Source: Pseudorhodoferax sp. Leaf274
Lineage (GTDB): Bacteria; Pseudomonadota; Gammaproteobacteria; Burkholderiales; Burkholderiaceae_C
DNA: 64,000 nt
Direction: 5' to 3'
NCBI RefSeq assembly: GCF_001422445.1
Contig: NZ_LMNA01000029.1
Location: 162,661 to 226,660 of the forward strand
Below are positions 17,713-36,041 of the stretch, piece after piece. Numbering within the stretch: the first letter of the stretch is position 1; each line of letters begins with the position of its first letter. The notes beneath the pieces are model-generated. The model did no database searches. It saw nothing but the letters and a program-made list of their open reading frames with translations, and had not been told where the DNA came from. The position numbers and the translations under genes were made by a program.

Positions 17713-17746
17713 CACATATTATGTGCGCAAGTTTGATGTGTTTCAA
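17713..17746 (-). promoter_or_regulatory. toxin-antitoxin promoter with autoregulatory palindrome
   Basis: Read on the minus strand, TTGAAA (17746-17741) and CATAAT (17723-17718) are separated by exactly 17 bp, a strong sigma70 promoter. The -10 box lies inside the 13-bp palindrome CACATATTATGTG (17713-17725; CACATA-T-TATGTG), which suits a ribbon-helix-helix repressor. This is one of the few AT-rich patches of the window. Confidence 0.75.
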
Positions 17747-17874
17747 GACTGGCACGCTCCCTGCAAAGACCCCCGTATTCGCCGGCAGCCCTGCCCGCGC
17801 GGGCACCGTCCCGGTGACCGCGCACCAGTCCGGCCCGGGAGCGTGCCCCAGATTGGGGATACTCACGGGTTACT

Positions 17875-17886
17875 CTGTATATACAG
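17875..17886. promoter_or_regulatory. HutC-type operator before the ABC importer genes
   Basis: CTGTATATACAG is a perfect 12-bp palindrome containing TGTA-N2-TACA, the pattern I recall for HutC operators in Pseudomonas. It lies 104 bp upstream of the binding-protein ATG. A weak -35-like TTGGGG (17853-17858) lies 17 bp before a TGTATA inside the palindrome, so a bound repressor would cover the promoter. A related site precedes hutH. Confidence 0.65.
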
Positions 17887-17989
17887 GTCTGCTCAAGCGA
17901 ATGAGACTGCGCGGCGCGTGCCCTTCCCCGGGGTGCGCGCCGGCGACACCAGCGTTCCGAAGCGTTCAACCCCAACCCAGGAGGGCCGC

Positions 17990-18952
17990 ATGGCCAAGAC
18001 AGTTTTCTCCAAGATTGCCACTGTGCTGGCTGCCGGCGCGCTGGCCGCCATGGCCCAGGGCGCTGCGGCCCAGACCAAGGTCGTGATCGGCATGTCCGGC
18101 TGGACCGGCTTCGCGCCGCTGACGCTGGCCGACAAGGCCGGCATCTTCAAGAAGAACGGCCTGGATGTGGAGATCAAGATGATCCCGCAGAAGGACCGCC
18201 ACCTGGCCCTGGCCTCCAAGTCCATCCAGTGCGCCGCCACCACGGTGGAGACGCACGTGGCCTGGAACACGAATGGCGTTCCCATCGTGCAGATCTTCCA
18301 GCTCGACAAGTCGTACGGCGCCGACGGCATCGCCGTGCGCAACGACATCAAGACCTTCGCCGACCTCAAGGGCAAGACCGTGGCCGTGGACGCGCCCGGC
18401 ACCGCGCCGTACTTCACGCTGGCCTGGCTGCTCAGCAAGAACGGCATGAACATCAAGGACGTCAAGACCGTCACGCTGGCGCCGCAGCCGGCGGCGCAGT
18501 CCTTCGTCACGGGCCAGAACGACGCCGCCGTGACCTACGAGCCCTACCTCTCCACCGTGCGCGACAACCCCGCCGCCGGCAAGATCCTGGCGACCACGCT
18601 GGAGTTCCCGCACATCCAGGACACGCTGGGCTGCGCGCCCGACTGGCTCAAGGCCAACGGCACGGCCGCCAAGGCGCTGGCCGATTCGTACTTCCAGGCG
18701 CTGGACATGATCAAGAGCGACACCGCCAAGGCCAACGAGATCATGGGCGCGGCCGTCAAGCAGACCGGCGAGGCCTTCGCCAAGTCGTCGGGCTTCCTGC
18801 GCTGGCAGGACAAGGCGGCCAACCAAAAGTTCTTCGCGGGCGAGCTGGAGACCTTCATGAAGGAAGCCGCGGTGATCCTGCAAGAGGCCGGCGTCATCCG
18901 CAAGCAGCCCGACAACTGGTCGGCCATGTACGACGCCAGCTACATCAAGTAA
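17990..18952 (+). CDS. ABC transporter substrate-binding protein (NMT1/TauA-like)
   Basis: This 320-residue periplasmic binding protein has a signal peptide (FSKIATVLAAGALAAMAQG, cleavage near AAA-QTK). The fold is the NMT1/SsuA type, with GMSGWTGFAPLTLADKAG at the N-terminus and the hinge block DLKGKTVAVDAPGTAPYF. Members bind aromatic sulfonates, pyrimidine precursors and other heterocycles. Placement between two HutC-type operators suggests histidine, urocanate or a related imidazole compound as ligand; this is inferred from context. ATG 17990 follows GGAGGG. It is the first gene of an importer operon that continues into hutC. Confidence 0.87.
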   Translation: MAKTVFSKIATVLAAGALAAMAQGAAAQTKVVIGMSGWTGFAPLTLADKAGIFKKNGLDVEIKMIPQKDRHLALASKSIQCAATTVETHVAWNTNGVPIVQIFQLDKSYGADGIAVRNDIKTFADLKGKTVAVDAPGTAPYFTLAWLLSKNGMNIKDVKTVTLAPQPAAQSFVTGQNDAAVTYEPYLSTVRDNPAAGKILATTLEFPHIQDTLGCAPDWLKANGTAAKALADSYFQALDMIKSDTAKANEIMGAAVKQTGEAFAKSSGFLRWQDKAANQKFFAGELETFMKEAAVILQEAGVIRKQPDNWSAMYDASYIK

Positions 18953-18955
18953 GCC

Positions 18956-19803
18956 ATGGCCGGCGACACCACCCGCGTTCTTCCCTCGGCGGCGCCAGCG
19001 GCCACGGCCGCCCCGGCGCGCCGGCGCCGCGGCATGGTGCCGCTGGAGCCCGTCAGCCCGCAGGCCCGCTGGCTGCTGGGCCTGGCCTTCTTCGTGCTGT
19101 TCGTGGCCGTCTGGGCGTTCTTCACGCTCGGCGGCTTCGTCTCGCCCACCTTCCTGGCCAGCCCCATCACGATGGTGCAGGAGGCCTGGCTGCTGTTCAC
19201 CGAGTACGGCTTCATCCACGACATCGGCATGACCGTCTGGCGCGTGCTGGGCGGCTTCATCCTGGCGGCCGTGGTCGCCGTGCCGCTGGGCATCGCGATG
19301 GGCGCGTACAAGCCGGTCGAGGCGTTCCTGGAGCCCTTCGTCTCGTTCTGCCGCTACCTGCCGGCCTCGGCCTTCATCCCGCTCTTGATCCTGTGGGCCG
19401 GCATCGGCGAGACGCAGAAGCTGCTGGTGATCTTCATCGGCTCGGTGTTCCAGATCATCCTGATGGTGGCCGTGACCGTGGGCGGCGCGCGCAAGGACCT
19501 CGTGGAGGCCGCCTACACGCTGGGCGCCGACAGCCGCGGCATCGTGCGCCGCGTGCTGATCCCGGGCGCCGCGCCCGGCATCGCCGAGACGTTGCGCCTG
19601 GTGCTGGGCTGGGCCTGGACCTATGTGATCGTGGCCGAGCTGATCGGCTCGTCCTCTGGCATCGGCCACATGATCACCGACAGCCAGGCGCTGCTGAACA
19701 CCGGCCAGATCATCTTCGGCATCATCGTGATCGGCCTGATCGGGCTGGTCTCCGACTTCATCTTCAAGGCGGTCAACAGGAAGCTGTTCGCCTGGGCCTC
19801 CCT

Positions 19804-19807
<4 letters not shown>
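18956..19807 (+). CDS. ABC transporter permease (SsuC/TauC-like)
   Basis: The 283-residue inner-membrane protein begins with about 40 polar, arginine-rich cytoplasmic residues followed by six predicted transmembrane helices. The permease coupling loop is visible as EAAYTLGADSRGIVRRVLIPGAAP, the EAA motif that contacts the ATPase. It lies 3 bp after the binding-protein gene and overlaps the ATPase gene by 4 bp. A single permease gene suggests a homodimer. Confidence 0.9.
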
Positions 19808-20587: not shown

Positions 20588-21379
20588 ATGAAGTCCGGCT
20601 CCGCGACCGCCCGCCACGCCTCTGCACGCTCCGGGGTTGCACGCTCCGAGGCCGCACCCGCGCTGGCGCTGTACGAGCAGGTCAAGGAGCACATCACGCG
20701 CCGCATCCAGAGCGGCGAGTGGCCGGCCGGGCACCGCCTGCCGTCCGAGCACGAGCTCGTGGCGCAGTTCGGCATCTCGCGCATGACGGCCAACCGCGCG
20801 CTGCGCGAACTGATGGACCAGGGCCGCGTGGTGCGGGTGGCCGGCGTGGGCAGCTTCGTGGCCGAGGCCAAGCCGCAGTCCACGCTGCTGCAGATCGCCA
20901 ACATCGCGAGCGAGATCCGCGGCCGCGGCCACGACTACGGCTTCCAGCTGATCGCCGCCGAGCGCGTGGCCGCCTCGCCCGACGTGGCCGTGTGGATGGA
21001 CGTGCGCATGGGTGAATCGCTCGTGCACTGCGTCTGCCTGCACCTCGAAGACGGCGTGCCCGTGCAACTGGAAGACCGCTACGTGAACCCGCGCCTGGTG
21101 CCGGCCTTCCTGGAACAGGATTTCTCCAGCGTGCCGCCCAGCGAATACCTGGTGCGCAACGTGCCGTTCGACCAGATCGAGCACCTGGTCGACGCCGTGC
21201 TGCCCACGGCCGAGCAGGCCGAGCGCCTGGCCATGGACCGGGCCGAGCCTTGTTTGCTGCTCACGCGCCGCACCTGGTCGCGCGGGCAGACCATCACGCT
21301 GGTGCGCTGCCTGCATCCCGCGTCCCGTTACCGCCTGGGCAGCCGTTTGCGCAACGACGGCAACCAGGGGCTGGCATGA
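20588..21379 (+). CDS. hutC: histidine-utilisation repressor HutC (GntR/UTRA)
   Basis: The 263-residue regulator has an N-terminal winged helix (YEQVKEHITRRIQSGEWPAG, LPSEHELVAQFGISRMTANR) and a C-terminal UTRA ligand domain (LEDGVPVQLEDRYVNP). HutC represses hut genes and is released by urocanate. The reading-head sequence RMTANRALRELM is the family's DNA-recognition helix. Its position inside the hut locus, directly before hutH, supports the assignment. Two matching operators (17875-17886 and 21493-21506) flank the transcription unit that contains it. About 20 N-terminal residues are low-complexity and may not be conserved. Confidence 0.92.
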   Translation: MKSGSATARHASARSGVARSEAAPALALYEQVKEHITRRIQSGEWPAGHRLPSEHELVAQFGISRMTANRALRELMDQGRVVRVAGVGSFVAEAKPQSTLLQIANIASEIRGRGHDYGFQLIAAERVAASPDVAVWMDVRMGESLVHCVCLHLEDGVPVQLEDRYVNPRLVPAFLEQDFSSVPPSEYLVRNVPFDQIEHLVDAVLPTAEQAERLAMDRAEPCLLLTRRTWSRGQTITLVRCLHPASRYRLGSRLRNDGNQGLA

Positions 21380-21492: not shown

Positions 21493-21506
21493 CTTGTATA
21501 GACAGG
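21493..21506. promoter_or_regulatory. HutC-type operator before hutH
   Basis: CTTGTATAGACAGG contains TGTA-TA-GACA, one mismatch from the perfect TGTA-N2-TACA core seen at 17875-17886, and shares the flanking AGG. It ends 7 bp before the hutH ATG and touches the Shine-Dalgarno AGGAAA (21504-21509), so binding could block transcription directly. No good -35 box is visible upstream; the 134-bp gap otherwise holds nothing recognised. Confidence 0.6.
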
Positions 21507-21513
21507 AAATGCG

Positions 21514-23067
21514 ATGAGCACTGAAACCACCACCTTGACGCTTTCGCCTGGCGCTGTGAGCCTGGCCCAACTGCGCCGCATCCACGCGGGGGGCGTGCGG
21601 CTGGCGCTGGACGAGGGCGCGCGCGCCGGCCTGCTGGCCGCGCAGGCCACCGTGCAATCCATCCTCGACGCCGGCGCCGTCGTCTACGGCATCAACACAG
21701 GCTTCGGCAAGCTTGCACAGACGGTCATCCCGCCAGGTCGCCTGGCCGAGTTGCAGCGCAACCTCGTGCTCTCGCATGCGGTCGGCACGGGCGCGCCGCT
21801 GGCGGCCGGCGTGGTGCGGCTGGTGCTGGCGGCCAAGGCCGTGAGCTTGGCGCGCGGCCATTCGGGCATCCGGCCCGAGATCGTCGATGCGCTGCTGGCC
21901 TTGTTCAACGCCGGCGTGCTGCCGCGCATCCCGGCCAAGGGTTCGGTCGGCGCCTCGGGCGATCTCGCGCCGCTGGCACACCTGGCCTGCGTGCTGATCG
22001 GAGAGGGCGAGGCCGAGCTCGCGGACGGCCGTGTGGTGCCCGGTGCCGAGGCCATGCGCGCTATCGGCCTGGAGCCCTTCGTGCTCGGCCCCAAGGAAGG
22101 CCTCGCGCTGCTCAACGGCACCCAGGTCTCGACCGCGCTGGCGCTGGCCGGCCTGTTCGGTGCCGAGAGCGTGTTCGCCGCAGGCCTCATGGCCGGCGCG
22201 CTGTCGCTCGAGGCCATCCAGGGCTCGATCAAGCCCTTCGACGCGCGCATCCATGCCGCGCGTGGCCAGCCCGGCCAGATCGCGGTGGCCGGCGCCGTGC
22301 GCACGCTGCTGGAAGGCAGCGAGATCATCCCCGGCCATGCCAACTGCGGCCGCGTGCAAGACCCGTACTCGATCCGCTGCATCCCGCAGGTCATGGGCGC
22401 CTGCCTGGACAACCTGGCCCACGCATCGCGCGTGCTCGTGATCGAGGCCAATGCGGCGTCCGACAACCCGCTGGTCTTCACCGACACGGGCGAGGTCATC
22501 TCGGGCGGCAACTTCCACGCCGAGCCCGTGGCCTTCGCGGCGGACATCATCGCGCTCGCGGTGGCCGAGGTCGGCGCGATCTCCGAGCGCCGCATGGCGC
22601 TGCTGCTGGATTCGGGCCTCTCGGGCCTGCCGCCCTTCCTCGTGCGCGATGGTGGGGTGAACTCCGGCTTCATGATCGCCCAGGTCACGGCCGCCGCGCT
22701 CGCGTCCGAGAACAAGTCGCTGGCCCACCCGGCCAGCGTGGACAGCCTGCCCACCTCGGCCAACCAGGAGGACCATGTGTCCATGGCCACCTTCGCCGCG
22801 CGCCGCCTGGGCGACATGGTGGACAACACGGCCGTGGTCGTCGGCATCGAGGCCATGGCCGCCTGCCAGGGCATCGAGCTCAAGCACCAACTGAAAAGCA
22901 GCCCCTTGATGGAAGCCGAGTTCGACGCGATCCGCGCCCACGTGGGCTTCATCGAACACGACCGCTACCTTGCGCCCGACGTGGAATCCATGCGGCAATG
23001 GGCGCTGGGTGCCCAGGGCCGCGCCTGGCCCGCCGCCGTCACCGCCATCCTGCCCAGCCACGCCTGA
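21514..23067 (+). CDS. hutH: histidine ammonia-lyase
   Basis: This enzyme deaminates L-histidine to urocanate and ammonia, the first step of the hut pathway. The 517-residue cytoplasmic protein has the triad Ala147-Ser148-Gly149 in [12 protein letters not shown], which cyclises to the MIO electrophile, plus [22 protein letters not shown] and [11 protein letters not shown]. Length is normal (about 510). The ATG follows AGGAAA at short spacing and the HutC-type operator. hutU follows after 19 bp. Confidence 0.96.
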
Positions 23068-23086: not shown

Positions 23087-24802
<1,716 letters not shown>

Positions 24803-24917: not shown

Positions 24918-25652
24918 ATGACCCTTCGCCGCCATCTGCTCGCCCTGGCCCTGCTGTCGACGACCGCCCTCGGCGTGCACGCCCAGGCCGTGCTCAAGGT
25001 CGCCACCGACGCCACCTTCCCGCCCATGGAGTTCTTCGAGAACAACCAGCGCACGGGCTTCGACACCGAACTCGTGGAGGCCATCGGCAGGCAGATGGGC
25101 CGCAAGGTCGAGTGGGTCGACATCGACTTCAAGGGCCTGATCCCGGCCCTGGTCTCCAAGCGCGTGGACATGGCCGTCTCGGCGATCTACATCACCGACG
25201 AGCGCAAGAAGGTCGTCGACTTCACCGAGCCCTACTACGCGGGCGGCCTGGTCGCCATGGTCAAGGCCGACAACGCGACGATCAAGTCGCCGGCCGACCT
25301 GGCCGGCAAGAGGGTCAGCGTGCAGGTGGGCACCAAGTCGGTGAGCTACCTCAAGGAGGCACACCCCAAGGCGCAGCTGGTCGAGGTCGAGAAGAACCAG
25401 GAGATGTTCAACCTCGTCGACGTGGGCCGCAGCGATGCCGCAGTCACGGGCAAGCCGGCCGCCTACCAGTACGTGCGCACGCGCCCGGGCCTCAAGGTGC
25501 TGCCCGAGCAGCTCACGACCGAGGAATACGGCATGGCGCTGCGCAAGGACACGCCCGAGCTGACCAAGGCCGTCAACGAGGCGATCGCCAAGCTCAAGGC
25601 CGATGGCAGCTACGCGGCCATCGTGAAGAAGTGGTTCCCGGTCACGCCATGA
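24918..25652 (+). CDS. amino-acid ABC transporter substrate-binding protein
   Basis: This 244-residue periplasmic protein of the polar-amino-acid family (SBP_bac_3, HisJ-like) has a signal peptide (RRHLLALALLSTTALGVHA, cleaved before QAVLK). Conserved blocks are ATDATFPPMEF, GFDTELVEAIG, MAVSAIYITDERKKVVDFT and LAGKRVSVQVGTKS. The canonical alpha-amino/carboxylate-binding arginine is Arg197-type in ITDERKK. The location inside the hut operon suggests histidine or urocanate as ligand. Its permease partner is the gene at 25830. No ATPase of this type is in the window. Confidence 0.9.
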   Translation: MTLRRHLLALALLSTTALGVHAQAVLKVATDATFPPMEFFENNQRTGFDTELVEAIGRQMGRKVEWVDIDFKGLIPALVSKRVDMAVSAIYITDERKKVVDFTEPYYAGGLVAMVKADNATIKSPADLAGKRVSVQVGTKSVSYLKEAHPKAQLVEVEKNQEMFNLVDVGRSDAAVTGKPAAYQYVRTRPGLKVLPEQLTTEEYGMALRKDTPELTKAVNEAIAKLKADGSYAAIVKKWFPVTP

Positions 25653-25670: not shown

Positions 25671-25797
25671 GAGCGCAGCGATGGCCCGGAACCCGGGCCA
25701 AGCGAAGCGATGGGCCGACTGGGACTTCCCCCTGCGCGCCTCGGCGTGGACACAAGGGCCCCGGGCGCGGGGTCACCCACGGGCGATCGCTGCGCTC
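25671..25797. repeat. intergenic element with 18-bp inverted arms
   Basis: The 177-bp gap between binding-protein and permease genes is bracketed by GAGCGCAGCGATGGCCCG (25671-25688) and, inverted, CGGGCGATCGCTGCGCTC (25780-25797), matching at 17 of 18 positions. Inside lies GGCCCGGAACCCGGGCC, a tight palindrome, and a third GCGAAGCGATGGGCC fragment. The structure could fold strongly in mRNA and set the ratio of binding protein to permease. No coding capacity is convincing. Confidence 0.6.
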
Positions 25798-25829
25798 TGC
25801 CTCGGTTTCTGCCGGCATGGATTTTTGAC

Positions 25830-26498
25830 ATGGATCTGGACTTCTCCCCCGTCTGGGCCGGCTGGGACGCGCTCGCACGCGGCACGCTGGTCACCGTCGA
25901 GATCACGGTCTGCGCGCTGCTGCTGGGCTGCGCGCTGGGCCTCCTGGTCGGCATCGGCCGCCTGCAACCGCAGCGGCGCTGGCTGTACGGCGCCTGCACG
26001 GCCTACGTGACCGTCGTGCGCGGCACACCCTTGCTGGTGCAACTGTTCATCCTGTTCTTCGGCCTGCCGCACTTCGGCCTGCTGCTGCCGGCCTTCCTGT
26101 GCGGCGTGCTGGGCCTGGGCGTGTATTCGGGCGCCTACGTGTCGGAGATCGTGCGCGGCGCCATCCAGTCCATCGCCCAGGGCCAGACCCTGGCCGCGCA
26201 GTCGCTGGGCATGACGGCGCCCACGGCCATGCGCCACATCATCCTGCCGCAGGCCGTGGTGCGCATGATCCCGCCGCTGGGCAACGAGTTCATCGCGCTG
26301 ATCAAAAATTCCGCCCTGGTCTCGCTGCTGACCATCCACGACGTGATGCACGAGGGGCAGAAGATCATCAGCGTCTCGTACCGCTCGCTGGAGGTGTACC
26401 TGGCGATCGCCGCCGTGTACTTCGCGCTCACGGGCACGGTGATGCTGGTGCTGCGGCATTTCGAACGGCGCATGAGCCAGGGAGGGCTGGTGCGATGA
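25830..26498 (+). CDS. amino-acid ABC transporter permease (HisM/HisQ type)
   Basis: The 222-residue inner-membrane protein has five predicted helices. Family blocks are [28 protein letters not shown], the coupling loop [20 protein letters not shown], and [14 protein letters not shown]. It forms the channel for the neighbouring binding protein. The start ATG 25830 begins the homology; an ATG at 25817 reads only three codons. Only one permease gene is present, so either it homodimerises or a partner is elsewhere. It overlaps hutD by 4 bp. Confidence 0.92.
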
Positions 26499-27067
26499 CA
26501 CGGCCGGTGCAACGCTTCGACGTGGACGCGCTCGCCGCCACACCCTGGAAGAACGGCGGCGGCAGCACGCGCGAGATCGCGAGCTGGCCGCCCGGGGCGG
26601 GCTTCGACGGGTTCGACTGGCGCGTCTCGGTCGCCAGCATCGCGGCCAGCGGCCCGTTCTCGCGCTTCGCCGGCGTGGACCGCATCATCACGCTGCTGGG
26701 TGGCGATGGCGTGCGGCTGCAGGGCGAGGGCATCGACCACCACCTGGCCACGCCGCTCGCGCCGTTCGCGTTCAGCGGCGATGCGCGCATCGACTGCACG
26801 CTGCTGGGCGGTGCGTCCAGCGATTTCAATGTGATGACCCGGCGCGGCCGGCTGCGCGCCGAACTGCGCGTGCTGCGTGGCGCGGCCGGACTGGCGGCGG
26901 CGCCGCATGGCCTGCTGCTGGCCTGGCGCGGCGGCTGGCGCGCGGGCGGGCAGCCACTCGCGCAGGGCCAGGGTCTGTGGTGGGCCGACGCCGCCACACC
27001 CTGGGCCGTGGCCACCGACGACCCCGACGCCGCGCTGCTGGCCGTGCAATGGCACACCGCCACCTAG
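26495..27067 (+). CDS. hutD: HutD family protein
   Basis: The 190-residue protein has the HutD signature at its N-terminus, [17 protein letters not shown], then [11 protein letters not shown] and a cupin-like beta-rich body ([27 protein letters not shown]). HutD is a conserved hut accessory protein proposed to limit urocanate build-up; it has no proven catalysis. It overlaps the permease stop (ATGA) and precedes hutI by 11 bp, tying the importer and the catabolic genes into one unit. Confidence 0.92.
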
Positions 27068-27078
27068 GAGACGAGCCC

Positions 27079-28296
27079 ATGCCTTCCTTCGACACCCTGC
27101 CTGCGGCCGATGGCCTGTGGACCGGACTTACCGGCCTGGACGGCCAACCCTGCGCCATCGCCGTGGCGGACGGCCGGATCGCCTGGACCGGCGCCCCCGA
27201 TGCGGTGCCACCGGCCCACGCAGGCGCGCCGCGCCACGCGGGGCAGGGCGCGCTCGTCACGCCCGGCCTGGTGGATTGCCACACCCACCTGGTCTACGGC
27301 GGCCAGCGGGCCAACGAGTTCGCGATGCGCCTGGCCGGCGCGACGTACGAAGAGGTGGCCCGGGCCGGCGGCGGCATCGTCTCCAGCGTGCGCGCCACGC
27401 GCGAGGCCAGCGAGGACGAATTGTTCGCCAGCGCCTCGGCGCGGCTGCGCAGCCTGCTGGCCGAGGGCGTGTGCGCCATCGAGATCAAGTCGGGCTACGG
27501 CCTCGCGCTCGAACACGAGCGCAAGCAGCTGCGCGTGGCGCGCCGGCTGGCTGCCGCGCACGGCGTGACCGTGCGCACCACCTTCCTGGGCGCGCACGCG
27601 CTGCCGCCGGAATACGCCGGGCGCAGTGGCGCCTACATCGACCTGGTCTGCCGCGAGATGCTGCCGGCCCTGCACGCCGAAGGCCTGGTCGACGCGGTCG
27701 ACGTGTTCTGCGAGCGCATCGCGTTCTCGCTGGCCGAGACCGAGCAGGTGTTCCAGGCCGCGCAGGCGCTCGGCATCCCGGTCAAGCTGCATGCCGAGCA
27801 GCTGTCGGACATGGGCGGCGCGGCGCTGGCGGCGCGCTACGGCGCGCTGTCGTGCGACCACATCGAGCACCTGTCGCAGGCCGGCATCGACGCCATGGCG
27901 GCGGCCGGCAGCGTGGCCGTGCTGCTGCCCGGCGCCTACTACACGCTGCGCGACACGACCCTGCCGCCCATCGCGGCGCTGCGCGCGGCCGGCGTGCCGA
28001 TGGCCGTCTCGACCGACCACAACCCCGGCACCTCACCGGCGCTCTCGCTGCTGCTGATGGCCAACATGGCCTGCACGCTGTTCCGGCTCACGGTGCCCGA
28101 GGCGATAGCCGGCATCACCGTGCACGCTGCGCGCGCGCTGGGCCTGCAAGAGTCGCACGGCACCCTCGCCGCCGGCCGGCCCGCGAACTTCGTGCTGTGG
28201 AACCTGCAGCACGCGGCCGAGCTGGCCTACTGGTTCGGCCAGCGACCGGTGCGCTGCGTGGTCCGCCAGGGCCGCATCGCGGAGGGGGCCGTATGA
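27079..28296 (+). CDS. hutI: imidazolonepropionase
   Basis: This enzyme hydrolyses 4-imidazolone-5-propionate to N-formimidoyl-L-glutamate. The 405-residue amidohydrolase has the metal ligands His68 and His70 in [10 protein letters not shown], the substrate block [15 protein letters not shown], and the catalytic aspartate in [10 protein letters not shown]. The RBS AGGAG lies 8 nt before ATG 27079. Length and motifs are typical. The step is common to both downstream branches; here hutF and hutG follow, so the two-step formylglutamate branch is used. Confidence 0.97.
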
Positions 28297-28345: not shown

Positions 28346-29731
28346 ATGAGCGCGCTGTTCGCCACCGACGCACTGTTGCCCGCGGGCTGGGCCCGCAACG
28401 TGCTGCTGCGCTGGGATGCGTCTGGCACGCTCGTGCAAGTGCAGCCGGACGCTGCGCGCCCCGAGGGCGTCGGCCTGGCCGAAGGGCCCGTGCTGCCCGG
28501 CCTGCCCAACCTGCATTCGCACGCCTTCCAGCGCGGCATGGCCGGCCTGACCGAGCACCGCGGCCAGGGCGAGGACAGCTTCTGGAGCTGGCGCACGCTG
28601 ATGTACCGCTTCGCCGGGCGGCTCGACCCGGCGCTGCTCGAGGCCATCGCCTTCGGCCTGTACGTGGAGATGCTGGAGGCCGGCTACACCAGCGTCTGCG
28701 AGTTCCACTACGTGCACCACGACCGCGGTGGCCGCCCCTATGCGGACGACGCCGAGCTCGCGCTGGCGCTGCTGCGCGCCGCGCAGCGCGCCGGCATCGG
28801 CCTCACGCTGCTGCCCGTGCTCTACCAGGCCAGCGGCTTCGGCGGCAAGCCACCGGGTGAGGGGCAGCGCCGCTTCATCCGCTCCACCGACGACATGCTG
28901 CGCCTGCTGGAGCGGCTGCGCCCGCTGTGCGCCGCGCAAGGCGCACGGCTGGGCCTGGCGCCGCACTCGCTGCGCGCCGTGCCGCCCGATGCGCTGCGCG
29001 CGGCCGTGGCCGGCCTGCACGCGCTGGACGCCACGGCGCCCGTGCACATCCACATCGCCGAGCAGACCCAGGAGGTGGACGACTGCATCGCCTGGAGCGG
29101 CCAGCGCCCCGTGGCCTGGCTGCTCGACCACGCGCCCGTGGACGCGCGCTGGTGCCTGGTGCACGCCACGCACATGGATGCCGACGAATACCGCCGCGCC
29201 GCCGCCAGCGGCGCCGTGGCCGGCCTGTGCCCGAGCACCGAGGCCAACCTGGGCGACGGCCTGTTCGACTGGCCGGCCTGGCAGGCCGCGGGCGGCGCCT
29301 GGGGCCTGGGCTCGGACAGCCATGCCTGCGTCAACGCGGCCGAGGAACTCATGCTGCTGGAATACGGCCAGCGCCTGGCCACGCGGCGGCGCAACGTGAT
29401 GGCGACACCGGCGCAGCCGCAGGTGGCGACCGCCATGCTGCTCGCGGCCGTGGCCGGTGGCGCACAGGCGGCCGGCCGCCCCGCGGCCGGCCTGGCCATG
29501 GGCCAGCAGGCCGACCTCGTCACGCTGGACGCACGGCATCCCGCGCTGGCCGGCCTGCCGGCGCACCAGATGCTGTCGGCCCACGTGTTCGCGAGCCACC
29601 GCACGAGCGCGGTCGGCACCGTCCATGTCGCTGGCCAGGCGCGCGTGGCCGCGGCGCGGCATGCCGAGCACCACCGCGCGATCCAGGGCCTGGTCGCAGC
29701 CCGTACCCAGTTACTCCAGGACAGCCCATGA
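28346..29731 (+). CDS. hutF: formimidoylglutamate deiminase
   Basis: This enzyme releases ammonia from N-formimidoyl-L-glutamate to give N-formyl-L-glutamate. The 461-residue amidohydrolase has GLPNLHSHAFQRGM (metal-binding histidines), FHYVHHDRGG, HIAEQTQEVDD, WCLVHATHMD and GSDSHACVN. It follows hutI after 49 bp and overlaps hutG by 4 bp. Its presence with hutG and without formimidoylglutamase marks the five-step hut pathway found in many Proteobacteria. Confidence 0.96.
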   Translation: MSALFATDALLPAGWARNVLLRWDASGTLVQVQPDAARPEGVGLAEGPVLPGLPNLHSHAFQRGMAGLTEHRGQGEDSFWSWRTLMYRFAGRLDPALLEAIAFGLYVEMLEAGYTSVCEFHYVHHDRGGRPYADDAELALALLRAAQRAGIGLTLLPVLYQASGFGGKPPGEGQRRFIRSTDDMLRLLERLRPLCAAQGARLGLAPHSLRAVPPDALRAAVAGLHALDATAPVHIHIAEQTQEVDDCIAWSGQRPVAWLLDHAPVDARWCLVHATHMDADEYRRAAASGAVAGLCPSTEANLGDGLFDWPAWQAAGGAWGLGSDSHACVNAAEELMLLEYGQRLATRRRNVMATPAQPQVATAMLLAAVAGGAQAAGRPAAGLAMGQQADLVTLDARHPALAGLPAHQMLSAHVFASHRTSAVGTVHVAGQARVAAARHAEHHRAIQGLVAARTQLLQDSP

Positions 29732-30546
29732 GCTTTTCCACCACCGAACCCCCCTTCCGCTTCCGCCAGGGCACCCGGCCGCTGCTGGTCTCCATGCCCC
29801 ACGTCGGCACCCACGTGCCGCCAGCGCTGGCCGCCCGCTTCACGGACGAGGCGCGCCACGTGCCCGACACCGACTGGCACCTGGAGCAGCTCTACGGCTT
29901 CGCCGACGCGCTGGGCGCCTCGGTGCTCGTGGCCACGCACTCGCGCTACGTGATCGACCTGAACCGGCCGCCAGACGGCGCGAGCCTCTACCCAGGGCAG
30001 AACGTCACCGGCCTGTGCCCCGTCGACACCTTCGACGAGACGCCGCTGTACCGCGATCCTGCCGACCAGCCCGGCGATGCCGAGACCGCCGCGCGGCGCG
30101 ACGCCATCTGGCACCCGTACCACGCCAAGCTGGCCGAGGAACTCGCGCGCATCAAGGCACAGCACGGCATCGCCATGCTCTGGGATGCGCACTCCATCCG
30201 ATCCGTGCTGCCGCGCTTCTTCGAAGGCAAGCTGCCCGACCTGAACCTGGGCACCGGCAAGGGCACGAGCTGCGATCCGGCGCTGGCCCAGGCGCTGCTG
30301 GCCATCGCCAAGGAGGCGACGGGCTACACCAGCGTGCTGAACGGCCGCTTCACGGGCGGCTACATCACGCGCCACCACGGCCGCCCGCACGAAGGCCAGC
30401 ACGCCGTGCAGCTCGAGATGACGCAGAGCAGCTACATGCAGGAGGCCTTGCCCTTCGACTACCTGCCTGCCGCGGCGGCCGGCGTGCAGCCGCACCTGCA
30501 ACGCATGCTGCAGGCGGTGCTGGACTTCGCCGAGACGCGCCGGTGA
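29728..30546 (+). CDS. hutG: N-formylglutamate deformylase
   Basis: This enzyme hydrolyses N-formyl-L-glutamate to glutamate and formate, the last hut step. The 272-residue protein belongs to the FGase family, with LLVSMPHVGTHVP, LEQLYGFAD, SRYVIDLNRPPDG, LWDAHSIRS and NGRFTGGYITRHHG. These contain the zinc-type histidines and the substrate arginines. It overlaps hutF (ATGA), and its own stop overlaps the GTG start of the FAD dehydrogenase. This indicates that transcription and translation continue into two extra genes. Confidence 0.95.
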   Translation: MSFSTTEPPFRFRQGTRPLLVSMPHVGTHVPPALAARFTDEARHVPDTDWHLEQLYGFADALGASVLVATHSRYVIDLNRPPDGASLYPGQNVTGLCPVDTFDETPLYRDPADQPGDAETAARRDAIWHPYHAKLAEELARIKAQHGIAMLWDAHSIRSVLPRFFEGKLPDLNLGTGKGTSCDPALAQALLAIAKEATGYTSVLNGRFTGGYITRHHGRPHEGQHAVQLEMTQSSYMQEALPFDYLPAAAAGVQPHLQRMLQAVLDFAETRR

Positions 30547-31925
30547 GCGGCCTCCTCGAAGCCCTGCGCGCGGTGCTGGGCGACGACGCCGTGGCCACCG
30601 GCGAGGCCATCCCCGCCCGCCAGCTGGCCGACTGGAGCGGCGTGCCGCCCGTGCGCCCGCTGGCCTGGCTGCGCCCGCGCAACACCGAACAGGTCAGCGC
30701 CGCGCTCCGGCTGTGCACGCAGCACCGCGTGCCCGTCGTGCCCCAGGGCGGCATGACTGGCCTGGCAGGCGCGGCCCAGCCGTTGGCGGCGGGCGTGGCC
30801 CTGTCGCTGGACCGCATGCAGGCCATCGAGCAGGTGGACGCCGCCACGCGCACGCTGACCGTGCAGGCCGGTGCCACCGTGCAGTCCATCCAGGAGGCGG
30901 CCAGTGCCCAGGGCCTGCTGTTCGGCGTGGACTTCGGCGCGCGCGGCTCGGCCCAGGTCGGCGGTGCGCTGGCGACCAACGCGGGCGGCAACGGCGTGCT
31001 GCGCTTCGGCATGATGCGCGAGCAGACGCTGGGCCTGGAGGTGGTGCTGGCCGACGGCAGCGTGCTGCCCATGCTGCGCCCCATGCAGAAGAACAACACG
31101 GGCTACGACCTGAAGCAGTTCTTCATCGGCGCCGAGGGCACGCTGGGCGTGATCACGCGCGCGCTGCTGCGGCTGCACCCGGCGCCGGCCGCGAGAGTGA
31201 GCATGCTGGCCGCCGTGCCCGACTACGACGCCGCGCTCGCGCTGCTGTCGCGCCTGCAGCGGCGTGCCGGCGCGGGCCTGGCCGCCTTCGAGCTCATGTG
31301 GCGCGACTTCGTGCAGGCCTCGCTGGCCTGGCAGAAGCTGCGCGAGCCCTTCGACGCGCCGCACCCGCTGCTGGCCCTGGTCGATCTGGACGGCCCCGAT
31401 GCGGCCCAGCTGCAGGCCGCGCTGGAGGATGTGCTGGCACCCGCCTTGCAGGATGGCCTGGTGCTGGACGCGGCCATCGCGCAGTCCGAGGCCCAGGCGC
31501 GCGCGTTCTGGAAGATCCGCGAGGCCACGGCCGAGCTGCCCACGAACATGCACCCGCCCGTCAACTTCGACGTGAGCCTGCCCATGGCCGAGATCGGCCG
31601 CTTCGCCAGCGCCTGCCGCGCCGCGCTGGACGCGCGCTGGCCCGGCCATGCCAGCGTGTTCTTCGGCCACATCGGCGACAGCAACCTGCATGTCTCCACC
31701 GACGCCTCGACCATCGCGGGCGATGTGGAAGGCCTGGAGCACCTGGTCTACGGCCTGGTCGGCGACTTCGCGGGCAGCGTCTCGGCCGAGCACGGCATCG
31801 GCCTGCACAAGAAGCCCTGGCTGGGCCGCAGCCGCACGCCGGCCGAGCTGGCTGCCATGCGCGCCGTGAAGGCGGCACTCGACCCCTTGCACCTGATGAA
31901 CCCCGGAAAGATCTTCGACCGATGA
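30543..31925 (+). CDS. FAD-linked 2-hydroxyacid dehydrogenase in the hut operon
   Basis: The 460-residue flavoprotein is of the same family as the one at 8288. FAD blocks are PVVPQGGMTGLAG, GALATNAGGNGVLRFGMM and NNTGYDLKQFFIGAEGTLG; the C-terminal part has HIGDSNLHV and SAEHGIGLHKKPW. The GTG start is part of GTGA and overlaps the hutG stop, with no independent ribosome-binding site, so it is translationally coupled to hutG. Its last codons overlap the HisC-like gene in the same way. Oxidation of imidazolyl-lactate to imidazolyl-pyruvate would fit both neighbours. That is inference, and lactate-type substrates remain possible. Confidence 0.87.
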   Translation: MSGLLEALRAVLGDDAVATGEAIPARQLADWSGVPPVRPLAWLRPRNTEQVSAALRLCTQHRVPVVPQGGMTGLAGAAQPLAAGVALSLDRMQAIEQVDAATRTLTVQAGATVQSIQEAASAQGLLFGVDFGARGSAQVGGALATNAGGNGVLRFGMMREQTLGLEVVLADGSVLPMLRPMQKNNTGYDLKQFFIGAEGTLGVITRALLRLHPAPAARVSMLAAVPDYDAALALLSRLQRRAGAGLAAFELMWRDFVQASLAWQKLREPFDAPHPLLALVDLDGPDAAQLQAALEDVLAPALQDGLVLDAAIAQSEAQARAFWKIREATAELPTNMHPPVNFDVSLPMAEIGRFASACRAALDARWPGHASVFFGHIGDSNLHVSTDASTIAGDVEGLEHLVYGLVGDFAGSVSAEHGIGLHKKPWLGRSRTPAELAAMRAVKAALDPLHLMNPGKIFDR

Positions 31926-33040
31926 CCGCCCCCGACCTGCTGGCCCTGGCCCGGCCCGAAGTGCCGCCGCTGCCCATCTACAACGCCGGCCTGTCGTCCG
32001 AGGCCGTGCGTGCGCGCCACGGCGTGGACCGCATCGCCCGCCTGGGCAGCAACGAGAACCCGTACGGCCCCAGTCCGCGCGTGGCCCAGGCGCTGGCAGG
32101 CCTCGCGCAGCAGGTGCTGTGGTATCCGGACGCCGACAGCAGCGCCCTGCGCGCAGCCATTGCCGCGCGCAGCGGCACCACGGCCGCGCACGTCGTGGTG
32201 GGCAACGGCTCCGAATCCATCCTGCAGATGCTGTGCCTGGCGCTGCTCTCGCCCGGCGAGCGCGTGCTGGCGCAGCGCCCGGCCTTTGGCCTGCACGAGA
32301 TCTACCCGCGGATGGTGGGCGCCGGGGTCGAGCTGCTGGACCTGTCGCCCGCGCTGGGCTTCGACGTGGACGCCTGGTGCGCGGCGCTCGCGCGCGGCCC
32401 CAAGATGGCCATGCTGGCCAACCCCTCGAACCCGGTGGGCTGCATGTTCGGCACCGCGGCCTTTGCGCGGCTGCTGGACGCCACGCCGGCCGGCACGCTG
32501 CTGGTCGTCGACGAGGCCTACGTGGAGTACGCGCGCCTCACGCCCGGGTTCCCCGACGCCCTGCCCATGCTGCGCGACCGGGGCAGTGCCTGGATCGTGC
32601 TGCGCACCTTCTCCAAGGCCTATGGCCTGGCCGGGTTGCGCGTGGGCTACGGCATCGCGTCCGATGCCGCGCTGGTGCAGCTGCTCGACCGCGTGCGCAC
32701 GCCCTTCGGCGTGAACCTGGCCGCGCAACTGGCCGCGCGCGCTGCCCTTGTCGACGAGGCCCACATGCGCCAGGCCGTGGCGCGTACCGTGGTGCAGCGC
32801 GATGCCATGGCCCGCGCACTGCAGGCCATGGGCCTGCGCGTGGCGCCGTCGGCCACCAATTTCCTGTTCGTCGACCTGGGCCGGCCCAACGGCCCGGTGA
32901 ACGAGGCGCTGCTGGCGCTCGGCGTGATCGTCAAGCCCTGGAAGGAGCCCGGCTTCACGCAGTTCCTGCGCATCACGGTGGGCACCGACGAGGACAACGC
33001 GCTGTGCCTGCAGGCGCTGCGCGACGCGCTGGCGTGTTGA
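31922..33040 (+). CDS. HisC-like aminotransferase in the hut operon
   Basis: This 372-residue PLP enzyme of the class I/II fold belongs to the histidinol-phosphate aminotransferase family. Visible are the N-terminal arm SNENPYGPSP, NGSESILQM (phosphate cup), ANPSNPVG, VVDEAYVEY, and the Schiff-base Lys232 in TFSKAYGLAGLRVGY. In a hut operon a biosynthetic role is unexpected. Transamination between histidine and imidazolyl-pyruvate is the natural suggestion, as HisC-type enzymes already accept imidazole side chains. It overlaps the dehydrogenase gene (ATGA) and is the last gene of the unit. Confidence 0.88.
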   Translation: MTAPDLLALARPEVPPLPIYNAGLSSEAVRARHGVDRIARLGSNENPYGPSPRVAQALAGLAQQVLWYPDADSSALRAAIAARSGTTAAHVVVGNGSESILQMLCLALLSPGERVLAQRPAFGLHEIYPRMVGAGVELLDLSPALGFDVDAWCAALARGPKMAMLANPSNPVGCMFGTAAFARLLDATPAGTLLVVDEAYVEYARLTPGFPDALPMLRDRGSAWIVLRTFSKAYGLAGLRVGYGIASDAALVQLLDRVRTPFGVNLAAQLAARAALVDEAHMRQAVARTVVQRDAMARALQAMGLRVAPSATNFLFVDLGRPNGPVNEALLALGVIVKPWKEPGFTQFLRITVGTDEDNALCLQALRDALAC

Positions 33041-33115
33041 AAGGCGTCGCCCGTGGTGTGCTTTGCGGCACCCGGGCCAGGCGCGCGGTAGCCTTGCGGT
33101 GCCGGGCGTCGCCTT
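33041..33115. other. post-operon inverted repeat
   Basis: Directly after the aminotransferase stop, AAGGCGTCGCCCG (33041-33053) pairs with CGGGCGTCGCCTT (33103-33115) at 12 of 13 positions, with a smaller GGTG/CACC hairpin inside. There is no T-run, so it is at best a weak or Rho-assisted terminator or an mRNA-stabilising fold at the end of the hut unit. Confidence 0.4.
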
Positions 33116-33167
33116 GCTGCAACAGGCGCATGGAGCCGCAAGGGGCCGGTGCTATGTTCGGCGCGCC

Positions 33168-34277
33168 ATGCCGATCCGCCCACCCAGCCCGCCGCGTCCG
33201 CTCCGTGTCTTGTCCGTTGCCATCTTGGGCGCCATCGGCGCCACGGCACAGGCCGCCGAGGACTTCCAGGTCCGCTACAACCTTGCCGGCAGCCTGGGCG
33301 GCGAGATCTTCGCGCCGGCCGACCTGCAGGGACTGACCGGCGGCATCGCGCTGACGCGCGTGGACATCCGCAAGGTGACCGGCAACGACGGCGAGCCGCT
33401 CACGCAGACGCTTGCGGGCGGCACGCTGCCCCTGCCTGCACCGACGCCCGCGGCGCTGTACCCGACCTACGGCGCGGCAACCGGGCGCATCGACGCCCGG
33501 GGCTCGCTGCTGCAATGGAACCTCGGCCTGGCGTGGCTGAGCCAGGCACGCTATGGCGGCGGCCGGCTGGCGCTGGCCGTCAACCTGCCGTATGCCACCA
33601 AGAAGCAGGGCTTCGCCGCGGACGCGCAGACGCCCGCGCTGAACTGGAATCCCGCTGTGCCCACGGCGACGCAGTCCGCCGTGCAGGCCCGGTTCGACAC
33701 GCAGTTCCAGAGCACGGTTGCAGCGCTGGCCGCGGCGGAGGGCGGCAGGGTGTCCGGCCTGGGCGACCTGGAGCTGCACGCGGGCTGGCGCCATGCCGAT
33801 GCGCAGCTGCGCGTGCTGGCCGGTGCCTCGCTGGTGCTGCCCACGGGCAAGTACGACGCGGCCTCCGGTCCGGACATCGGCTTCGGCAATTTCTACACCT
33901 TGCGGCCGGTGGCCCAGCTGGTCTACCTGCCGCGGCCCGACATCGCGCTGGCGGGCCGTGTGACGGTGGGCCTGAACACGCGCAACCGCGACAACGACCT
34001 GCGCAGCGGCAACTGGGCGAGCCTGGAAGTCGCCGCCGGCACCATGACGCGGCTGGGGCCGGTCGGCGTGCACGTGCTGCAGGCCCAGCAGTTCCAGGAC
34101 GACAGCGGCAACCGCTGGGGCACCAGCCGCTACCGCTCGACCAACGCGGGACTGTTCTTCACCACGCGCATCCCCGTGGTCGACCTGGTGCTGACGCTGC
34201 AGCACATGGCGACGCTGCAATCGCGCAACGCCAAGCACGGCACCTATTCGCAGGTGCGGCTTACCAAGACTTTCTGA
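33168..34277 (+). CDS. outer-membrane beta-barrel protein (phenol MetA-pathway type)
   Basis: The 369-residue precursor has a signal peptide (LRVLSVAILGAIGATAQAA, cleaved before EDFQV). The mature part alternates short hydrophobic strands with polar turns and ends in an aromatic residue (RLTKTF), as expected of outer-membrane barrels. Blocks such as GLGDLELHAGWRH, GASLVLPTGKYD and GFGNFYTLRPVAQLVY match a family usually annotated as transporter or MetA-pathway of phenol degradation. Such proteins are thought to pass small hydrophobic compounds. The start was taken at the signal peptide; the ribosome-binding site is poor. It lies between the hut and NCS1 loci and may serve either. Confidence 0.72.
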   Translation: MPIRPPSPPRPLRVLSVAILGAIGATAQAAEDFQVRYNLAGSLGGEIFAPADLQGLTGGIALTRVDIRKVTGNDGEPLTQTLAGGTLPLPAPTPAALYPTYGAATGRIDARGSLLQWNLGLAWLSQARYGGGRLALAVNLPYATKKQGFAADAQTPALNWNPAVPTATQSAVQARFDTQFQSTVAALAAAEGGRVSGLGDLELHAGWRHADAQLRVLAGASLVLPTGKYDAASGPDIGFGNFYTLRPVAQLVYLPRPDIALAGRVTVGLNTRNRDNDLRSGNWASLEVAAGTMTRLGPVGVHVLQAQQFQDDSGNRWGTSRYRSTNAGLFFTTRIPVVDLVLTLQHMATLQSRNAKHGTYSQVRLTKTF

Positions 34278-34445
34278 GACGCGGGCCGCCCGACGGCCTG
34301 GTGCAGCACGGCCGGCATGCGCCGCGCCGCAGCGTGGCCGCCTTCCGGGTTTGGCCCTGGGCCCGGGCCGCTTCGGCTGCATGGGCAGGCCGGTCCCGCG
34401 CCGCTTTCCTAGGGTTTGTCCGGGTGCCGCCATGGCCGCTTGGGC

Positions 34446-34499
34446 TTGATTGCGTCCGTTTTTTGGATACAAAATTCGAACCCAATAAACGGACGCAAT
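34446..34499 (+). promoter_or_regulatory. NCS1 promoter with a 13-bp perfect inverted repeat
   Basis: ATTGCGTCCGTTT (34449-34461) and AAACGGACGCAAT (34487-34499) are exact inverted copies 25 bp apart. Between them and overlapping the left arm is a sigma70-like pair, TTGATT (34446-34451) and TACAAA (34468-34473), 16 bp apart. The spacing would place two repressor half-sites around the promoter. The GntR protein encoded downstream is the likely ligand. The upstream 34278-34440 segment holds no recognised feature. Confidence 0.6.
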
Positions 34500-34538
34500 G
34501 CACGTCCGACCAGCCCAGCCACCCATCAAAGGAAGACC

Positions 34539-36041
34539 ATGAGCACTGCAACCGTCAGTCAGGTACCGGGGGAGACCAACGCAACCGGGGCGGGCCCGGC
34601 ACACACCGGCCATGCCGCAAGCAACGCCGCCATCAAGCCGGATTACCACCCGCGCCTGACCAACGAAGACCTGGCGCCGCTCAAGCGGCAGACCTGGGGC
34701 CAATACAACATCTTTGCGTTCTGGATGGCCGACGTGCACAGCGTGGGCGGCTACATCACGGCCGGCAGCCTGTTCGCGCTGGGCCTGTCGAGCTGGCAGG
34801 TGCTGGTGGCCTTGCTGATCGGCATCGTCATCGTGCAGTTCTTCTGCAACCTCGTGGCCAAGCCCAGCCAGGTCACGAGCACGCCGTACCCGGTGATCTG
34901 CCGCGCCTCGTTCGGCGTGCTGGGCGCCAACATCCCGGCCATCATCCGCGGCCTGATCGCGGTGGCCTGGTACGGCATCCAGACCTACCTGGCGTCCAGC
35001 GCCTTCATGATCCTGGCACTGCATCTGTTTCCCAACCTGGCGCCGTACGCCGACCTCGCGCAGCACGGCTTCGCCGGCCTGTCCACGCTGGGCTGGGTCG
35101 CGTTCATGGTCATGTGGGTGCTGCAGGCCTTCGTGTTCTGGCACGGCATGGAAGCCATCCGCAAGTTCATCGACTGGGCCGGCCCGGGCGTCTACGTGGT
35201 CATGGCCATCCTGTGCGGCTGGCTGGTCTGGAAGGCGGGTTGGCGCAACATCGACCTGAACCTGGGCGGCGTGAAGTTCGAGGGTTGGGACGCCGTGCCC
35301 GTGATGCTGTCGGCCATCGCGCTGGTGGTGAGCTACTTCAGCGGGCCGATGCTGAACTTCGGCGACTTCTCGCGCTACGGCAAGAGCTTCGATGCGGTGA
35401 AGAAGGGCAACTTCTGGGGCCTGCCGATCAACTTCATCTTCTTCTCGCTGCTGACGGTGGTCACCACCGCGGCCACGCTGCCGGTGTTCGGCGAACTCAT
35501 CACCGACCCCGTGCACACGGTCGGCAAGATCGACAGCACCACGGCCGTGGTGCTGGGCGCGCTGACCTTCATGATCGCCACCGTGGGCATCAACATCGTG
35601 GCCAACTTCGTCTCGCCCGCGTTCGACTTCTCCAACGTGGCGCCGCAGCACATCAGCTGGCGCACGGGCGGCATGATCGCGGCCGTGGGCTCGATCTTCC
35701 TGACGCCCTGGAACCTGTACAACAACCCGCAGGTGATCCACTACACGCTGGACGTGCTGGGCTCGTTCATCGGCCCGCTGTTCGGCATCCTGATCGCCGA
35801 TTTCTACATCGTGCGCAAGCAGCGCGTGGACGTGGACGCGCTCTATTCGATGAGCGAGCAAGGCGCCTACTGGTACCGCAACGGCTACAACATGAAGGCC
35901 GTCTGGACCATGGTGCCGGCCGCCTTGATCCCCATCCTGTGCGTGATCGTGCCGGCATTGCGCGGTGGCGCCAACTACGCCTGGTTCATCGGCATGGGCC
36001 TGGGCTTCGTCATCTACACCCTGCTGAACCGCAAGAGCTGA
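34539..36041 (+). CDS. NCS1 family nucleobase/hydantoin/allantoin permease
   Basis: This 500-residue inner-membrane symporter has about twelve helices and belongs to the nucleobase:cation symporter-1 family, which imports allantoin, hydantoins, cytosine, uracil or thiamine. Visible family parts are the N-terminal NEDLAPLKRQTWGQYNIFAFW, CRASFGVLGANIPAIIRG, NFGDFSRYGKS and SPAFDFSNV, and ADFYIVRK near the C-terminus. AAGGAAG before ATG 34539 is a good RBS. The adjacent racemase gene, 5 bp downstream, favours a hydantoin or allantoin substrate. Confidence 0.9.
   Translation: MSTATVSQVPGETNATGAGPAHTGHAASNAAIKPDYHPRLTNEDLAPLKRQTWGQYNIFAFWMADVHSVGGYITAGSLFALGLSSWQVLVALLIGIVIVQFFCNLVAKPSQVTSTPYPVICRASFGVLGANIPAIIRGLIAVAWYGIQTYLASSAFMILALHLFPNLAPYADLAQHGFAGLSTLGWVAFMVMWVLQAFVFWHGMEAIRKFIDWAGPGVYVVMAILCGWLVWKAGWRNIDLNLGGVKFEGWDAVPVMLSAIALVVSYFSGPMLNFGDFSRYGKSFDAVKKGNFWGLPINFIFFSLLTVVTTAATLPVFGELITDPVHTVGKIDSTTAVVLGALTFMIATVGINIVANFVSPAFDFSNVAPQHISWRTGGMIAAVGSIFLTPWNLYNNPQVIHYTLDVLGSFIGPLFGILIADFYIVRKQRVDVDALYSMSEQGAYWYRNGYNMKAVWTMVPAALIPILCVIVPALRGGANYAWFIGMGLGFVIYTLLNRKS

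Follow-up and report, generated by a model that had tools for sequence, protein, structure and literature searches.

The analysed stretch of Pseudorhodoferax sp. Leaf274 DNA (contig NZ_LMNA01000029.1, positions 162,661 to 226,660 of the forward strand; 64,000 nucleotides, referred to as the window) contains a histidine utilization (hut) operon that closes with two further genes, encoding a flavin adenine dinucleotide (FAD)/metal 2-hydroxyacid dehydrogenase (DHG; 30543..31925, with a GTG start) and a class I aminotransferase (HAT; 31922..33040). We examined these two genes as a possible entry into histidine catabolism from imidazolyl-lactate. All genes of the operon lie on the + strand, in the order hutC (GntR/UTRA repressor; 20588..21379; TIGR02018, 312.4 bits with a cut-off of 220), hutH (histidine ammonia-lyase; 21514..23067; TIGR01225, 668.3 bits, cut-off 539.15), hutU (urocanate hydratase; 23087..24802; TIGR01228, 933.1 bits, cut-off 375), an SBP_bac_3 periplasmic amino-acid binding protein of an ATP-binding cassette (ABC) transporter (24918..25652; PF00497, E 4e-44), a polar amino-acid ABC permease (25710..26498; TIGR01726, 100.7 bits, cut-off 42.2), hutD (26495..27067; PF05962, E 5e-51), hutI (imidazolonepropionase; 27079..28296; TIGR01224, 472.5 bits, cut-off 298.15), hutF (formimidoylglutamate deiminase; 28346..29731; NF006684, 693.7 with a cut-off of 525, and TIGR02022, 589.4 with a cut-off of 413.05), hutG (N-formylglutamate deformylase; 29728..30546; TIGR02017, 359.9 bits, cut-off 278.75), DHG, and HAT. 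As HutC, HutH, HutU, HutI, HutF, and HutG all reached the curated cut-offs and their genes are tightly packed on a single strand, this is a true hut operon of the HutC type.

Overlaps of four bases join hutF to hutG, hutG to DHG (GTGA), and DHG to HAT (ATGA); direct reading of the junctions confirmed the last two, which had been pointed out in an earlier note on this sequence. The note had also stated that separate ribosome-binding sites were lacking; the ATG of hutG is preceded by AGGA, DHG has no such site, and HAT has a possible weak site (GGAAAG ending 11 nucleotides 5′ of its start). The four-base DHG/HAT overlap recurred in 17 of 21 Burkholderiales loci where a script had located both genes in that order, and thus it is not due to chance; two of the four loci lacking it may have a misassigned start codon. 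A HutC-operator-like palindrome, CTTGTATAGACAGG (21493..21506, assigned to neither strand), ends 7 nucleotides 5′ of the hutH start. It was the sole site with at most two mismatches on both strands of the 64 kb, using the Pseudomonas consensus, and shuffled sequences contained a mean of 0.13 sites, with 3 of 100 shuffles reaching two matches. The overlaps and the operator-like site suggest that DHG and HAT may be carried on the hut transcript and may respond to HutC. A consensus scan of 30400–33400 found no promoter-like or terminator-like site, and it was uninformative because only 0.1 and 0.5 sites, respectively, were expected by chance.

HAT was compared with its relatives in named genomes, for which the best 80 of 568 were taken as loci with their flanks. 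Of the five best matches, 88–90% identical, four came from Pseudorhodoferax and the fifth from a strain labelled Variovorax boronicumulans. By tblastn, HutH, HutU, HutI, HutF, or HutG was found in the fetched flanks of at most 8 kb at 61 of these best 80 loci, and at five Acetobacter loci HutH and HutU lie farther along the contig, 9–13 kb from HAT. Hut genes therefore lie within 13 kb of HAT at 66 of the 80 loci, in several phyla, and these include Delftia acidovorans and Comamonas testosteroni; strains NBRC 14950 and ATCC 11996, respectively, share the arrangement hutI-DHG-HAT-hutF-hutG. A major facilitator superfamily transporter gene is inserted between HAT and hutF in C. testosteroni JL40 and in a Comamonas metagenome-assembled genome (MAG) (L047:4762-5991 and L045:4306) and is absent in ATCC 11996; it is a possible imidazolyl-lactate carrier. 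The 14 loci without nearby hut genes were L044, L053, L058, L062, L064, L075, L091, L093–L097, L100, and L101. A urocanase-like gene was present in 19 of 23 genomes (those of 19 loci initially scored as hut-less and of four Halomonadaceae), the one in Pseudoalteromonas being weak (36%).

The linkage was also seen in a sample of 120 genomes from the family, in which HAT was present in six genomes and HutU in 63, with all six HAT genomes among the 63 (hypergeometric probability 0.019, or 0.035 without the genome under study). In four of the six, HAT and HutU share a contig and are no more than 9 kb apart; in the other two (G069 and G050), HutU was on another contig, yet hutG and DHG adjoined HAT. 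HutU within 20 kb on the same contig was found for none of the 128 lower-identity members of the 134 HisC-like matches in this sample, where coordinates were compared by eye and contig breaks could hide some cases. DHG (at least 60% identity) occurred in eight genomes of the sample; six copies adjoin hut genes, and in G053 the hut genes lie elsewhere. Across 369 genomes drawn from the whole class, searched with profiles for DHG (E ≤ 1e-160) and HAT (E ≤ 1e-110), DHG was found in three genomes and HAT in the same three. The chance of this agreement was 1.5e-5 even without the genome under study, with relatedness left uncorrected. HutU was found in 47 genomes of this draw and in two of the three carrying DHG and HAT.

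We consider it probable that HAT and DHG form a branch leading into the hut pathway, consisting of a D-imidazolyl-lactate dehydrogenase and a histidine transaminase. In the first step, imidazolyl-lactate, and most probably its D isomer, would be oxidised to imidazolyl-pyruvate by DHG, with FAD and a divalent metal as cofactors, and HAT would convert imidazolyl-pyruvate and glutamate into L-histidine. HutH, HutU, HutI, HutF, and HutG would then degrade L-histidine, with glutamate regenerated. We infer the substrates, the stereochemistry, the direction of the reactions, and co-transcription, and we are surer of the aminotransferase half than of the dehydrogenase half. The earlier note had arrived at an imidazolyl-lactate route, which remains the best reading, and had named absence of hut genes near relatives as grounds for abandoning it; the 66 of the 80 best loci with hut genes came out in its favour. 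Its second suggestion, that the pair runs in reverse as a histidine overflow, is unlikely, since FAD enzymes of the DHG family oxidise hydroxyacids.

DHG is a member of the FAD D-2-hydroxyacid dehydrogenases. Pfam assigns it only FAD_binding_4 (PF01565) and FAD-oxidase_C (PF02913). All five catalytic and metal-binding residues (R326, H376, H383, E416, and H417) were present when DHG was aligned with human D2HGDH and mouse LDHD, corresponding to the Arg, His, His, Glu, and His of the glycolate/metal site given in PMC7801405 and PMC10589216. DHG scored 249.6 bits against the glycolate oxidase GlcD model TIGR00387, below the cut-off of 567.9. Its nearest solved relatives are D2HGDH-like. In D2HGDH, the distal carboxylate of D-2-hydroxyglutarate is bound by T390, K401, Y432, and N443 (PMC7801405). 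The corresponding pocket of DHG consists of A330, N341, F374, and S385, so that K401 and N443 of D2HGDH are replaced by N341 and S385, whereas two DHG paralogs in the same genome retain Lys and Asn. On the strength of this altered pocket, we rejected a plain D-2-hydroxyglutarate dehydrogenase as the identity of DHG. In a midpoint-rooted tree of 66 sequences, from which proteins of fewer than 400 or more than 520 residues were excluded, the members with an N-F-S/T pocket formed one clade of 33 sequences (support 0.995), the named ones belonging to Burkholderiales and Halomonadaceae. As the structure model of DHG was of moderate quality (predicted local distance difference test, pLDDT, 78.8), no geometry was drawn from it. 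Mouse LDHD is inactive on L isomers and takes D-2-hydroxy-3-phenylpropionate at lower efficiency (PMC10589216), and D-imidazolyl-lactate is thus reasonable in size, with the D isomer expected.

An alternative that keeps HAT as a histidine transaminase would have DHG act elsewhere in histidine or glutamate metabolism, for example on D-2-hydroxyglutarate formed from 2-oxoglutarate, and be merely co-regulated. The D2HGDH-like nearest relatives speak for it, as do the many HAT-hut loci without DHG and one genome with DHG and no HAT, whereas the exchange of the carboxylate-binding Lys and Asn, the presence of both genes in the same three of 369 genomes, and the conserved overlap at 17 of 21 loci speak against it. 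We regard it as rather unlikely, although it is the strongest of the alternatives.

A broader role of the pair was considered from the active site of HAT, which has the pyridoxal phosphate (PLP) lysine K232, the carboxylate arginine, and a pocket formed by E98, F122, L124, and F262. In an alignment with two M. tuberculosis enzymes described in PMC4703992, these pocket positions are Val/Phe/Leu/Phe in the aromatic aminotransferase and Asn/Tyr/Met/Tyr in the histidinol-phosphate enzyme. HAT thus agrees with the aromatic enzyme at F122, L124, and F262, and Rv3772 (4r2n) is its best sequence match in the PDB; together with the activity of mouse LDHD on D-2-hydroxy-3-phenylpropionate, this would be consistent with a pair serving aromatic 2-hydroxyacids in general (phenyl-lactate and indole-lactate) through a broad aromatic aminotransferase, with histidine as a minor substrate. 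Against this, the usual neighbours of HAT are hut genes including HutC and HutH, the pocket of DHG is polar (N341 and S385), and none of the three enzyme types compared has Glu at the position of E98 (they have Val, Asn, and Asp), and we judge such a general role improbable.

The residue comparison was extended to 83 sequences of the HAT family and 17 HisC-like ones from the same bacterial family, only one of the 17 being confirmed in a his operon. E98, L124, and H125 were found in all 83 HAT-family sequences and F262 in 82, whereas the HisC-like sequences had Asp (17 of 17), Met (16 of 17), Tyr (17 of 17), and Tyr (14 of 17), respectively; W340 of HAT is mostly Val in the HisC-like set. F122 and K338, also considered as specific to HAT, were dropped because they are common to the 17 HisC-like sequences. 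The HAT pocket is thus distinct from that of HisC, HAT looks more like an amino-acid transaminase, and the earlier note's remark that HisC-type enzymes handle imidazole substrates was too loose. HAT has the Pfam domain Aminotran_1_2. It passed NF003496 (PRK05166), a family named histidinol-phosphate transaminase, by 2.3 bits (542.3 bits, cut-off 540), and missed the hisC equivalog TIGR01141 narrowly (273.2 bits, cut-off 276.55; 3.4 bits short, with no positive control). With both scores near the cut-off, these models alone decide nothing on HAT, and we doubt the HisC function implied by the name of the former. The AlphaFold model of HAT (pLDDT 94.6) had HISN6, with histidinol phosphate, and Rv3772 among its best fold matches (template modelling score 0.87–0.93 to 8bj3 and 4r2n). 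Two further close relatives of HisC are encoded in the same genome, each 34% identical to HAT; one is flanked by hisD and hisB, hisD in turn adjoining hisG (hisGDCB), and the other lies beside a CobD/CbiB gene. HAT itself is located among hut genes and not among his genes. Thus, although the family scores and the HISN6 fold are what a second histidinol-phosphate aminotransferase for biosynthesis with incidental placement in hut would give, HAT is very unlikely to be a biosynthetic HisC, because a HisC is already encoded in the his operon, HAT is linked to hut genes at 66 of the best 80 loci, and its pocket residues differ.

Several observations weigh against an imidazolyl-lactate entry branch. 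The HAT loci are not independent, many coming from close species. The third genome of the class-wide draw (G365) has DHG-HAT-hutG with neither HutH nor HutU and is a true exception; in the family sample, HutU and HutH were not found in one genome with DHG (G105), and another has hut genes and DHG without HAT (G023). No urocanase was found at E 1e-60 in four Novacetimonas/Gluconacetobacter entanii genomes with HAT (L053, L058, L062, and L075). The score of HAT against the hisC model is just 3 bits or so below the cut-off, and the HAT pocket residues also occur in family members away from hut. Neither type of dehydrogenase was found in the fetched stretch at 18 of the 61 hut-linked HAT loci, and 16 of these 18 come from genomes, several of them MAGs, in which a search for this type of DHG at E 1e-150 found nothing; in one of the two matching genomes, the DHG copy contains a stop. 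From these 18 loci, HAT is the constant part of the module and DHG the variable part, and organisms with HAT and no DHG may use another oxidoreductase or transamination only.

Damaged and diverged copies of DHG were also observed. The hut-borne copy of L106 (G003; DHG at 12839-14181) is broken up over two reading frames, in a genome assembled as a single contig, and is a probable pseudogene or a sequencing error. A copy in Comamonas kerstersii (L150, G519; C5:209527-210909) with one internal TGA is a decaying gene or an error; it apparently lies upstream of the hut-HAT locus L050, which is itself without DHG. A second, diverged pair of an aminotransferase (30%) and a DHG-like enzyme (44%; pocket E-T-F-S) is encoded at L149:6122-8567 in a genome (G506) that also has the main module. 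In Rhizobium (L095, L100, and L101), HAT adjoins a DHG-like enzyme (36–37%; pocket D-S-F-V) with no hut genes nearby; a ferredoxin-reductase-like gene precedes HAT in L095 and L101, and a GFA-type gene is also close in L101. In the window, a DHG paralog (8336-9709; 46–47% identity; pocket S-S-Y-V) lies 13 kb 5′ of hutU and adjoins the large permease gene of a tripartite ATP-independent periplasmic (TRAP) transporter, and a paralog is found at the same spacing from hutU in G069 (C111).

Different hydroxyacid dehydrogenases are gathered around one HAT-hut core. A D-type enzyme was found at 43 of the 61 hut-linked loci and a flavin mononucleotide (FMN) enzyme at 19. In two Vreelandella strains (L086/L087), a single cluster contains HutH (679.5 bits in L086, cut-off 539.15), an FMN-dependent dehydrogenase (FMN_dh) from the L-lactate dehydrogenase family, DHG, an ABC importer for amino acids, HAT, a dioxygenase of the PhyH type, and HutC (283.6 bits in L086, cut-off 220), with further hut genes directly beside it. 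Of the four Halomonadaceae stretches fetched, three contain another HutH; L071, in which the importer ATPase of the cluster was scanned, and L079 are without the FMN enzyme. Most Acetobacteraceae HAT loci have a distantly related D-type dehydrogenase that is LDHD-like by motif, and 17 hut-linked Acetobacteraceae loci also have an unrelated FMN_dh. D-type and L-type dehydrogenases with the transaminase and HutH would be the set needed for both imidazolyl-lactate isomers, and this is the strongest functional hint. A wider reading, which we put forward tentatively and with less confidence than the function of the pair itself, is that histidine catabolism has a widespread accessory module for the uptake and oxidation of both isomers. 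HAT beside hut would be its core, and the recruited dehydrogenases would be a new subfamily of D-imidazolyl-lactate dehydrogenases (mostly A/G-N-F-S/T; Comamonadaceae and Halomonadaceae), an LDHD-like type (Acetobacteraceae), and an FMN L-type, while the Halomonadaceae cluster, with its own HutC, HutH, and importer, would be fed by PhyH/DIOX from a further imidazole compound.

PhyH matches were found in 18 of the best 80 HAT loci and DIOX matches in 13. The PhyH-type 2-oxoglutarate dioxygenases are at L025:2-445, L026:104-871, L046:683-1450, L059, L066, L070–L073, L077, L079, L082–L087, and L089, and 13 of these loci also have a DIOX-type gene. In L025 and L026, close relatives of the window, the PhyH homolog (46–47%) just precedes the ABC binding-protein gene of the hut locus. 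Such a dioxygenase might form imidazolyl-lactate, for example by alpha-hydroxylating imidazolepropionate, or might demethylate methylhistidines; its genes accompany HAT in Acetobacteraceae and Halomonadaceae, and C. testosteroni is reported, by title, to degrade imidazolylpropionate, but with PhyH and DIOX in only a minority of the loci and no match to either in the window, entry from a further compound is a very doubtful explanation here.

Outside the operon, an NMT1-type binding protein and a permease (window 17723-19807) upstream of hutC are likely of the HisXYZ type, a transporter predicted for Comamonadaceae in PMC5343134. HAT is followed on its 3′ side by a Phenol_MetA_deg (PF13557) protein (33165-34277), kept in all five closest relatives (L022–L026), and then by an NCS1 permease (34416-36041). 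Elsewhere in the genome (G000:C30:750905-755560), adjacent HutH-like (33%) and HutU-like (50%) genes lie outside the hut operon; prompted by thiourocanate hydratase models, our guess is that they are a pair for ergothioneine/thiourocanate degradation.

The module can be compared with a pathway known from biochemistry. Coote and Hassall reportedly described an imidazolyl-lactate NADP (nicotinamide adenine dinucleotide phosphate) oxidoreductase and a histidine-2-oxoglutarate aminotransferase in Pseudomonas acidovorans in 1969 and the degradation of imidazolyl-L-lactate by Pseudomonas testosteroni in 1973; these names correspond to Delftia acidovorans and Comamonas testosteroni. The same species carry HAT and DHG in hut, and the old pathway includes a histidine-2-oxoglutarate aminotransferase. 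The biochemistry that the earlier note drew on exists, but its oxidoreductase is NADP-linked and DHG is of the FAD/metal type, which is a further point against our reading; DHG is not the classical enzyme and probably serves the D isomer. Nor does DHG fit EC 1.1.1.111 (imidazolyl-lactate dehydrogenase), an NAD(P)-dependent enzyme, as its only Pfam domains are FAD_binding_4 and FAD-oxidase_C. No NAD(P) hydroxyacid dehydrogenase was among the six flanking genes scanned at the D. acidovorans and C. testosteroni hut loci, which was not a full search. HAT is a direct candidate for histidine transaminase EC 2.6.1.38 (L-histidine + 2-oxoglutarate -> imidazolyl-pyruvate + glutamate) because D. acidovorans, the source of that activity, carries HAT in hut; the EC number is linked to this species in PMC6567437. 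Among the papers listed, titles and the beginnings of abstracts, with most subscription papers outside this coverage, gave no genes assigned to imidazolyl-lactate degradation or histidine transamination in bacteria. If our reading is correct, it provides a gene for the 1969 transaminase activity of D. acidovorans, corrects the family annotation "histidinol-phosphate transaminase", and adds a D-specific imidazolyl-lactate dehydrogenase, which is not named in the old titles. D- and L-imidazolyl-lactate are described as microbial metabolites in PMC12583827, the D form inhibiting urease and the growth of several urinary bacteria, and organisms consuming imidazolyl-lactate would then matter for the persistence of such signals.

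Among enzymes, DHG resembles the D2HGDH/LDHD/GlcD subfamily of vanillyl-alcohol oxidase (VAO) flavoproteins in its fold and its five catalytic and metal residues, and differs in its pocket (A-N-F-S/T, compared with T-K-Y-N in D2HGDH and V-W-S-I in subsite B of LDHD); it falls into its own clade. HAT shares the fold, the PLP lysine, and the carboxylate arginine with the HisC and aromatic aminotransferases (subfamily I-beta; Rv1600, Rv3772, and HISN6), but has E98 in place of Asn, Val, or Asp, the aromatic-type L124 and F262, and neighbours from hut instead of his. A study of the HutC regulons of Proteobacteria (PMC5343134) covers the hut enzymes together with HutD and transporters; in its accessible text, "hisC" and "imidazol" do not occur and no hydroxyacid dehydrogenase is named. 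Compared with the Pseudomonas-type hut operon (HutF/HutG route) under HutC, the operon in the window has HutC, HutH, HutU, HutI, HutF, HutG, and HutD, and adds DHG and HAT.

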